From Halothiobacillus diazotrophicus (GTDB lineage: Bacteria; Pseudomonadota; Gammaproteobacteria; Halothiobacillales; Halothiobacillaceae), in assembly GCF_001663815.1 (NCBI RefSeq), contig NZ_CP016027.1:2119001-2183000 (forward strand): 64,000 bases of DNA. The letters run 5' to 3'. The position numbers were made by a program, and so were the translations under genes. This document shows positions 12,637 through 16,466 of this stretch, in pieces (position 1 is the first letter of the stretch; every line of letters begins with the position of its first letter). Below the pieces are notes generated by a model. It worked only from the letters and a program-made list of their open reading frames with translations, did not search any database and was not told where the DNA came from.

Positions 12637-12734
12637 GCGTGCATGATTGCACGAAGCGCGTGCATTTTCCCGTGGAGGCGGTCTGTTAGTATGTGCGGAT
12701 TGTTCAATTTTCGGCGCAATGGAAAATCAGGTCT

Positions 12735-13547
12735 ATGTCTCAGCCCGTCTCACTCAACTTCGAAGAATCCGGTGGCGGCCTGCCGGTGCTCATCATGCAC
12801 GGCTTGTTCGGCTCGCTGGCGAATTGGCGTGGAGTTGCCCGGTCGCTGTCGGACACGTACCGGGTCATCAATCTGGATTTGCGCAATCATGGTCGATCCC
12901 CCTGGGCACCCGGCCTGAGTTATTCCGACATGGCCGATGACGTGTTGCGGCTCATGGATCGACTGGGTCTGGAGCGTGCCAAGCTGATCGGTCATTCGTT
13001 GGGCGGGAAGTTGGCGATGGTCCTGGCCGATCGCGCGCCGGAGCGATTTACCCGAATGGTCGTGGTCGACATCGCACCCAAGGCCTATCCTGCCTGGCAC
13101 CAGGACGTTTTTGCGGCATTGCGCGCGGTTGATCTGACGGCGATCGAGTCGCGGGACGAAGCGCGCATGCAAATGGCACAGCATGTGTTCGATCCCGAAG
13201 TGCGGGCGTTCCTGACCGCAAACCTCATGCATGGACCGGATGCGGGATGGCATTGGCGCTTCAATCTGGAGGAGCTTGCCCGGGCCTATCCCGAAACCTC
13301 TCTCATGCCGGTGCTTCACGGTTTTTTCTGCGGCCCCGCGTTGTTCATCCGGGGTGCCGGTTCGGCCTACATCGAGCCGGTTGACGAGCCGTTGATGTCA
13401 CGTCAGTTTCCCGGCAGTTGCCTGTGTACCCTGCCCCGGGCCAAGCACTGGCCGCATGTGGAAGATCCGCAGGGATTTCTGCAGGCGGTTCGCCGTTTTT
13501 TTGTCAGTGGCTGCGATTCGTTTCAGAGCCTCGATCACGCTCTGTGA
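12735..13547 (+). CDS. Alpha/beta-fold hydrolase (YbfF-like esterase)
   Basis: Cytoplasmic alpha/beta hydrolase, 270 aa. It has the oxyanion-loop motif HGLFGS, the nucleophile elbow GHSLGG (S88), a DLRNHGRS segment typical of YbfF-type esterases and a C-terminal catalytic-His region (AKHWPHVEDP). I chose ATG 12735 (MSQPVSLNF) over an upstream in-frame ATG at 12693, because homology to the fold begins at LNFEESG. The substrate cannot be inferred. The gene ends 18 bp before the GacA-like box of the RNA gene that follows. Confidence 0.85.
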   Translation: MSQPVSLNFEESGGGLPVLIMHGLFGSLANWRGVARSLSDTYRVINLDLRNHGRSPWAPGLSYSDMADDVLRLMDRLGLERAKLIGHSLGGKLAMVLADRAPERFTRMVVVDIAPKAYPAWHQDVFAALRAVDLTAIESRDEARMQMAQHVFDPEVRAFLTANLMHGPDAGWHWRFNLEELARAYPETSLMPVLHGFFCGPALFIRGAGSAYIEPVDEPLMSRQFPGSCLCTLPRAKHWPHVEDPQGFLQAVRRFFVSGCDSFQSLDHAL

Positions 13548-13564
13548 GCATGTGATGCTCGATC

Positions 13565-13582
13565 TGTAGGATTATTCCTACA
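13565..13582 (+). promoter_or_regulatory. GacA/UvrY-type activator box
   Basis: TGTAGG-N6-CCTACA, a perfect 18-bp inverted repeat. The known upstream activating sequence for GacA-controlled small RNAs of the Csr/Rsm family is TGTAAG-N6-CTTACA: same spacing, one changed base per arm. It lies about 64 bp before the inferred RNA start (a possible -10 is TACAAC, 13625-13630). No good -35 is seen, as expected for an activator-dependent promoter. Confidence 0.68.
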
Positions 13583-13797
13583 CGATTAACCGCTTATTCT
13601 GACGGAACTTGCCCCCGTTCACGCTACAACTTGTCACAGATGTTCGTCATGATGGCCTCGTGTTCGGAAACACAGCGGCAGGACGCCGATTTTGTCTGTT
13701 CATGGATGATCAGACAGCACTCAATGGATCGATGCCCAAGGATGGGCTGGCCACGGCAGGGATGCCGTGGCCGAACTGCTTTCGGATGAGCAGCGTG

Positions 13798-13876
13798 ACC
13801 AGGGATGACTTGTTACCAGGGATGACTTGTTACCAGGGATGACCTGTGACCAGGGATGACCTGTGACCAGGGATGA
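13798..13876 (+). repeat. 17-bp direct tandem repeat inside the CsrB-like RNA
   Basis: Four full copies and a partial fifth of a 17-bp unit (accagggatgacttgtt or accagggatgacctgtg), starting at 13798, 13815, 13832, 13849 and 13866. Each copy provides one CAGGGATG CsrA-type motif. Copies 1-2 and 3-4 are identical pairs, suggesting recent duplication by slippage. Confidence 0.92.
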
Positions 13877-14126
13877 TCAAGGGATCAACGAAGGATTCAC
13901 ACGGAAGTCTTCAGGATGATGCGCAAGGATGCGGCGGCAGGATGCCGACAGGGAAGCGTGTTGTACTGGACAGGATGTCTTGCAGAGGTTCGGGACGAAT
14001 CTCCTTCGCGCGTGGCCGTAGGATTGCTCGGCTGCGGGCCGCCCAGGGATGGGCAAAACTGATCAGTTCAACCTTTGACTGTGTCCATGACGGGCATGTC
14101 AGGATCGAACCATGGAACGGGTTCTT

Positions 14127-14143
14127 GGCCAGGATGGCCTTTT
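14127..14143 (+). terminator. Candidate terminator of the CsrB-like RNA
   Basis: GGCC-AGGAT-GGCC followed by TTTT. The loop again holds a GGA motif. The 4-bp stem is short, so the true end might lie slightly downstream, but nothing stronger is visible before queA. Confidence 0.45.
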
Positions 14144-14251
14144 CTGCTTGATTTCCCCGCCCTATTCACAAAGCAACCGCCGTATTGGGCACTGAAGGGC
14201 CGATGTCACCGCTACAGCCCGAATTGTCAGCCGTGATAGACTGCGCGCGCC

Positions 14252-16466
<2,215 letters not shown>

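Follow-up and report, generated by a model that had tools for sequence, protein, structure and literature searches.

The closest described counterparts of the RNA considered here are CsrB of Escherichia coli, the RsmX/RsmY/RsmZ RNAs of Pseudomonas and Pf1-Pf3 of Pseudoalteromonas fuliginea. Pseudomonas RNAs of the RsmX/Y/Z group other than rsmX-2 measure about 110-130 nt and hold far fewer GGA motifs. The published consensus of the GacA/UvrY palindrome is given in the accessible part of its source as TGTAAGN6CTTACA (PMC4682653). Pf1, Pf2 and Pf3, with 25, 21 and 9 GGA, respectively, are present in CsrA targetomes, and the accessible text of the same report states that sequence conservation is usually lacking among CsrA-antagonistic sRNAs (PMC11882849); escape from sequence-based searches is thus a known property of such RNAs. 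Among open-licence PMC papers, none was found on a GacA-CsrA-sRNA circuit in Halothiobacillus or the Halothiobacillaceae, nor any on CsrA in Guyparkeria, a tentative name for the second genus compared below.

In the 64,000-nucleotide stretch of the Halothiobacillus diazotrophicus genome analyzed here (the window), the gap between an esterase-like hydrolase gene and queA very probably harbors a stand-alone gene for a GacA-activated, CsrA-sequestering RNA of Csr/Rsm type, about 490 nt long, as judged from motif content, fold and conservation (Table 1). The plus strand of positions 13637-14145 (509 nt) contains 27 GGA, 15 GGATG, 6 AGGATG, 7 AGGGATG and 2 TCC; the recount bears out the first-pass annotation, which had reported 27 GGA, 15 GGATG and almost no TCC. 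Its expectation of about nine GGA agrees with the mean of 8.1 (sd 3.2) per 510-nt stretch over both strands of the window, but is too low for the composition of the region itself, which gives 12.5 upon base shuffling and a mean of 18.2 upon dinucleotide shuffling (27 or more in 4 of 2000 shuffles). The 25 GGA-richest 510-nt stretches of the window (step 10, either strand) all overlap the region. GGATG reaches a mean of 2.6 and a maximum of 9 in the same 2000 dinucleotide shuffles, so that the observed 15 are never attained; the strong signal of the region is the excess of GGATG/AGGGATG rather than the GGA count. Within the predicted RNA (about 486 nt), the density is 5.6 GGA per 100 nt.

Table 1. 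Features of the GGA-rich locus and its neighbors, in window coordinates.
Feature	Position	Strand	Basis or remark
alpha/beta hydrolase gene, esterase-like	12693..13547	+	upstream neighbor of GGA-rich RNA
GacA/UvrY-type box TGTAGGATTATTCCTACA, 18-nt inverted repeat	13565..13582	.	palindrome scan, genome pattern search, 19-locus alignment
conserved promoter-region element ATTCTGACGGAAC	13596..13608	+	19-locus alignment A3; putative role
two mechanical ORFs, 77 and 92 aa	13609-13842, 13873-14151	.	overlap GGA-rich RNA
candidate -10 element CATGAT	13648..13653	+	conserved CAT.AT block in A3
predicted CsrA-sequestering sRNA	13660..14145	+	about 486 nt, 27 GGA; content, fold, conservation
first hairpin GUGUU-CGGA-AACAC	13660..13673	+	span-limited fold; similar hairpin in most of 19 loci (by eye)
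GGA hairpin GUCUGUUCA-UGGA-UGAUCAGAC	13694..13715	+	span-limited fold
GGA hairpin GGCCACGGC-AGGGAU-GCCGUGGCC	13749..13772	+	span-limited fold, -21.1 kcal/mol
tandem array, 17-nt unit x 4.8 (GTGACCAGGGATGACCT)	13795..13876	+	five GGATG sites
GGA hairpin GAGGUUCG-GGA-CGAAUCUC	13985..14003	+	span-limited fold; L020 counterpart GAGGUUC-GGGAU-GAACCUC
intrinsic terminator GGCCAGGATGGCC TTTTCT	14127..14145	+	hairpin 14127-14139, then T-tract; loop AGGA
queA	14252..15337	+	downstream neighbor of GGA-rich RNA

Thirteen of the 27 GGA can be placed in loops whose closing stem has 4 bp or more (mean 4.4, maximum 11 in 1000 shuffles), and the best 486-nt stretch elsewhere in the window reaches 10. The measure is not a sharp one, because E. 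coli K-12 csrB treated identically places 9 of its 22 GGA in loops, within the range of its own 500 shuffles, which reach 10. Expressed as a fraction, the loop placement (0.48) is equalled by 21 of 1000 shuffles, and GGA ranks 10th of the 38 trinucleotides in the RNA; the GGA loop fraction is by itself only modestly special. The RNA as a whole folds with a z-score of -2.6, one shuffle in 100 folding equally well, and a span-limited fold leaves 15 of the 27 GGA wholly unpaired. Measured against the yardstick of E. coli csrB, the location of many GGA motifs in loops or single strands is that of the Csr/Rsm functional class. Folding, proposed as a check in the first-pass annotation, came out in favor of its CsrB-type reading; nine of the ten GGA-loop hairpins that it had named recur in the span-limited minimum-free-energy structure (read by eye), but the one at 13874 forms no simple hairpin.

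The arrangement is maintained in relatives. A search for queA in 40 genomes matched 39, from which 30 loci were fetched; in 19 genomes, 10 from the own genus and 9 from a second one of the family, queA is preceded by a box, a GGA-rich RNA and a terminal hairpin, the latter located by a pattern that presumes a hairpin. This 19-locus set counts the own genome and leaves out four loci of genus g3 (L038-L041), one of a third genus (L042), six of other families (L043-L048) and the genome G019, in which queA is split. Across the set, each RNA contains 17-33 GGA and 1-8 TCC, the distance from box end to hairpin end is 507-641 nt, and the hairpin stands 63-273 nt upstream of queA; for L028 the predicted RNA length is about 560 nt. 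In L042, a box is present and the next 480 nt hold 23 GGA, some 500 nt upstream of queA (by eye). The box itself occurs in 20 of 20 examined genomes of the three genera, exactly in 15 (L042 included) and with one mismatch, at the first base, in 5. The number of GGA in loops exceeds that of all 100 shuffles in 18 of the 19 genomes, with a tie in L026. Some parts are less constant: the loop of the first hairpin is without GGA in L025, L026 and L028 (read by eye), and L020-L024 have a poor T-tract behind the terminal hairpin.

Covariation was counted on the alignment of the second genus (A2), comprising 9 sequences, 18 helices and 77 pairs; as the helices were hand-listed from the RNAalifold result, the list leans towards its consensus, and one helix (columns 397-411) has no GGA loop. 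In these helices 97.1% of cells are paired, as against 31-38% upon sliding by 1-3 columns. Changes on both sides are found in 13 cells, where shuffling gives 3.6 (none of 500 attains 13), and fall in 7 pairs, a number that one shuffle in 500 reaches; further pair types show no excess in A2 (13 versus 12.9 in shuffles). RNAalifold gives 152 pairs on A2, 18 of them with double changes. On the own-genus set it yields a poor consensus of 40 pairs, 15 with double changes, on a loose alignment, and this result was set aside as covariation evidence together with the single-hairpin alignment, both being too loose. The hairpin at 13694-13715 provides an illustration: its counterpart is GCCUAGUCA-AGGAC-UGACUAGGC in L020, with several compensatory changes, and GCCUUGAUCA-AGGAU-UGAUUAAGGC in L028, so that the stem sides vary jointly and GGA is retained. 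The first-pass annotation had foreseen that relatives would keep GGA hairpins in the queA gap while the stems covary, and this is what the syntenic loci display; in 9 of the 19 loci reading frames were compared as well, and none is conserved.

The box upstream of the RNA is the one palindromic place returned by a palindrome scan (0 in 100 shuffles). It departs from the published consensus at position 5 (G) and at the pairing C, and is regarded as a putative binding site; at sequence level, a GacA/UvrY palindrome upstream is a further trait of the Csr/Rsm functional class. The pattern TGTARGN6CYTACA has this single match in the 2,908,964-base genome and the reversed control pattern also has one; a single match per genome is therefore no more than chance would give, and it is the position that carries the weight: about 85 nt upstream of the predicted RNA start, a placement whose chance is estimated at about 100 nt out of 2.9 Mb. 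Two blocks behind the box, TC..ACG.AAC and CA..AT, recur across the 19 aligned loci and suggest a transcription start at about 13655-13665; a sigma-70 consensus scan of the region returned no promoter. Together with the intergenic site and the non-coding character, the locus has its own terminator, as do RNAs of the class, the T-tract being weak in some relatives.

When one mismatch is allowed, the reversed control gives more matches than the box in 11 of 11 genomes; such boxes are dominated by chance, and only those adjoining a GGA-rich RNA were therefore counted. Two further exact boxes in G010 were rejected as RNA loci, having 7-14 GGA per 480 nt alongside, and so was a second match of the profile R1 in G014 (22.4 bits), a box without a GGA-rich RNA. 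Also in G010, an exact box with no GGA-rich RNA adjoining it lies about 320 nt downstream of a second GacA-like gene, C79:71084-71698 (L104, G010:C79:70800-73200). In G014, a box precedes a small ORF resembling comEA (helix-hairpin-helix), as judged by eye alone (L112, G014:C1:2389478-2389597), a possible direct target of GacA. Over the class, the strict box TGTAGGAN4TCCTACA was found in 16 of 143 genomes (one per genus, own included) and its reversed control in 2 of 143. One box locus was read per genome, which leaves out second places in G067, G110 and G114; outside the family, a GGA-rich, TCC-poor flank accompanies 5 of the 15 loci so read and is lacking at the other 10. In those five (L058, L061, L063, L068 and L069, from other gammaproteobacterial families), the GacA-type box is followed by a stretch with 9-13 GGA in 320 nt, in some cases ending in terminator-like hairpins (by eye); none has an Rfam match at cut-off, R1 scores 18.4 bits in L058, and all five are candidate Csr/Rsm RNAs.

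In terms of nomenclature, the RNA is placed in the Csr/Rsm functional class and outside the Rfam family RF00018 (CsrB), since it scores 16.1 bits (E 0.03) against a gathering cut-off of 71, where E. coli csrB obtains 380.4. RF00018 has no match in the own genome, and at gathering level the whole window contains three tRNAs only; with E up to 10 no assignment is obtained either, RsmW being the only one listed among CsrC, RsmW and RsmX/Y/Z (13.7 against 52 bits, E 10). Twenty further loci, L088 and 19 that carry the RNA, likewise stay below every Rfam cut-off; of ten other loci tried with E up to 1, L023 obtains the highest RF00018 score, 34.3 bits. The covariance-model search suggested in the first-pass annotation thus reached no cut-off, and its label of "CsrB/RsmZ family" fits the likely function and the architecture but not the Rfam family. 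A profile of the 5' part, R1, recovers the RNA in G000 (the own genome), G009 and G014 and misses the divergent form in G010, though G010 has both box and GGA-rich RNA. No match to the RNA was found in 72,556 plasmid records (E 1e-5). The best reading is that of a lineage-specific CsrB-type RNA, of a kind already known and in a version that Rfam does not recognize.

The proteins that such an RNA would work with are encoded. As in other gammaproteobacteria, where uvrY/gacA adjoins uvrC, one clear UvrY/GacA-type regulator of 212 aa lies directly before uvrC; it scores 198.9 bits against 57.5 for the next best in the genome, and remains under the NCBIfam equivalog cut-off (199.5 versus 280 bits). 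A single CsrA of 74 aa is encoded (109.5 bits, cut-off 73), its gene being the next one after an aspartate-kinase gene; it has residues L4 and R44 (by eye), to which a figure legend of PMC7652899 draws attention. The joint presence of CsrA and a GacA-like regulator is likewise that of the Csr/Rsm functional class. As for GacS, a search for the sCache_4 domain of BarA was positive in the E. coli control and negative in the own genome; the latter does have receiver matches within long frames, none of them assigned as GacS/BarA.

At E<=1e-40, GacA was detected in every one of the 13 genomes tested from the three RNA-bearing genera, 2 of the 9 second-genus genomes among them. CsrA was not found in 2 of the 10 own-genus genomes (G002, G003), for which assembly gaps, the sole explanation offered, may account. 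In the sister genus g3, of the same family, the three of five genomes that were tested (G011, G013 and G015, with queA loci L041, L040 and L039, respectively) all have CsrA, and GacA is absent from all three at the same threshold. Loci L038, L039 and L041, read directly, show no such RNA upstream of queA (L040 ends about 190 nt short). R1 matches in 0 of 5 g3 genomes with 150 candidates scored per genome, a silence that is weak evidence because R1 also misses G010 and only these 150 candidates were scored. In the g3 genomes tested, CsrA is thus kept and GacA lacking, with no trace of the RNA found, which makes this genus a natural test of what a CsrA antagonist is for.

The tandem array within the RNA has a core, CCAGGGATGAC, present in 4 copies here and in none of the other 18 aligned loci. 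The own genome contains three other intergenic arrays, of 14-nt unit, with the GGATGA core also seen in the 17-nt array: L106 1315-1385 (5.1 copies), L107 1495-1550 (4.0) and L108 1319-1466 (10.6), at about 132314, 465794 and 2860318 of G000:C1, respectively. The array in L108 takes its start at the stop codon of a minus-strand histidine-kinase ORF; judged by eye, the array units might pair in the form GGCC-UGAGGAUGAC-GGCC. That CsrA titration might be tuned by tandem amplification, the one CsrB-type RNA having acquired CsrA sites through the 17-nt array and the separate GGATGA minisatellites serving as further, decentralized sponges in 3' regions, is a doubtful conjecture.

These arrays raise the question as to whether the GGA-rich region could be the functionless product of minisatellite or low-complexity drift, with GGATGA-type repeats amplified by slippage. 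This is very improbable: the array makes up no more than 82 of the 486 nt and its core occurs, among the 19 aligned loci, in the own one alone, while the other 18 loci keep the GGA hairpins, the box and the terminal hairpin, and the second genus shows covariation. Still less credence, next to none, is given to a protein-coding gene in either of the two mechanical ORFs. Apart from the ORFs themselves, what speaks for it is that two plus frames are open across L032; neither ORF matches Pfam, open runs vary in frame and length in the nine loci examined, stems are preserved by substitutions, and the array period of 17, not being a multiple of 3, would shift any reading frame.

A role in a neighboring mRNA, whether as 5' leader of queA or as 3' tail of the hydrolase transcript, with CsrA sites through which that mRNA would be regulated instead of CsrA being titrated, deserves more attention, as the strand is common to both neighbors, the terminal hairpin stands just 113 nt before queA and CsrA generally binds mRNA leaders, as the accessible text of PMC7652899 has it. 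It is nonetheless improbable in view of the box and terminal hairpin that the RNA has for itself ahead of queA in every one of the 19 aligned loci, of the variable distance to queA (63-273 nt there, and some 500 nt in L042 by eye), of a GGA number per locus far above that of a leader site and of the retention of queA in g3, where the RNA was not found. All three readings were therefore rejected. The long CsrB-type RNA proposed in the first-pass annotation accords with the conserved GGA hairpins and their covarying stems, with a box and a terminator that frame the RNA and with genes for both CsrA and a regulator resembling GacA. The GacA box, the tandem array and the partner genes had not been mentioned in that annotation.

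If the region encodes such a CsrA-sequestering RNA, phosphorylated GacA would bind the palindrome at 13565-13582 and turn on the promoter; RNA synthesis would start near 13660 and stop at the hairpin 14127-14139. The resulting RNA of about 490 nt would show its 27 GGA, about half of them able to occupy short hairpin loops, and would take up many CsrA dimers, whereupon mRNAs held by CsrA would be released. The hub role in CsrA control and the actual transcript of about 500 nt put forward earlier are to be understood in the same conditional sense. Were the RNA transcribed and bound by CsrA, a GacA-CsrA-sRNA circuit would be placed in the sulphur-oxidizing Halothiobacillus and its sister genera, and the 19-locus set could serve as the basis for a covariance model.

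By comparison with Pf1-Pf3 of P. fuliginea, which are likewise intergenic, found by their GGA motifs and provided with putative promoters and terminators (PMC11882849, in its accessible text), there is one candidate here, in partial screens of the own genome, instead of three RNAs. RsmX, RsmY and RsmZ of Pseudomonas have the GGA motifs and a palindromic upstream activating sequence, a potential GacA site, in common with the present locus (PMC2375449 and PMC7911923, as far as their accessible text goes), and differ in size, rsmX-2 being short at 110 nt (PMC7911923). The likeness to E. coli CsrB extends, in the accessible descriptions, to GGATG repeats in hairpin loops and single strands, an intergenic position, an 18-nt GacA/UvrY inverted repeat upstream and CsrA as the partner, and the density of GGA is about the same (6.0 per 100 nt there, 5.6 here). 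The two differ in their neighbors, yqcC and syd for csrB versus the hydrolase and queA, and in the distance from the box to the start, 182 nt versus about 85 nt to the predicted start here. With 369 nt and 22 GGA, CsrB is also the smaller of the two, the RNA described here having a predicted length of about 486 nt and 27 GGA, in keeping with the larger size claimed for it from the outset.
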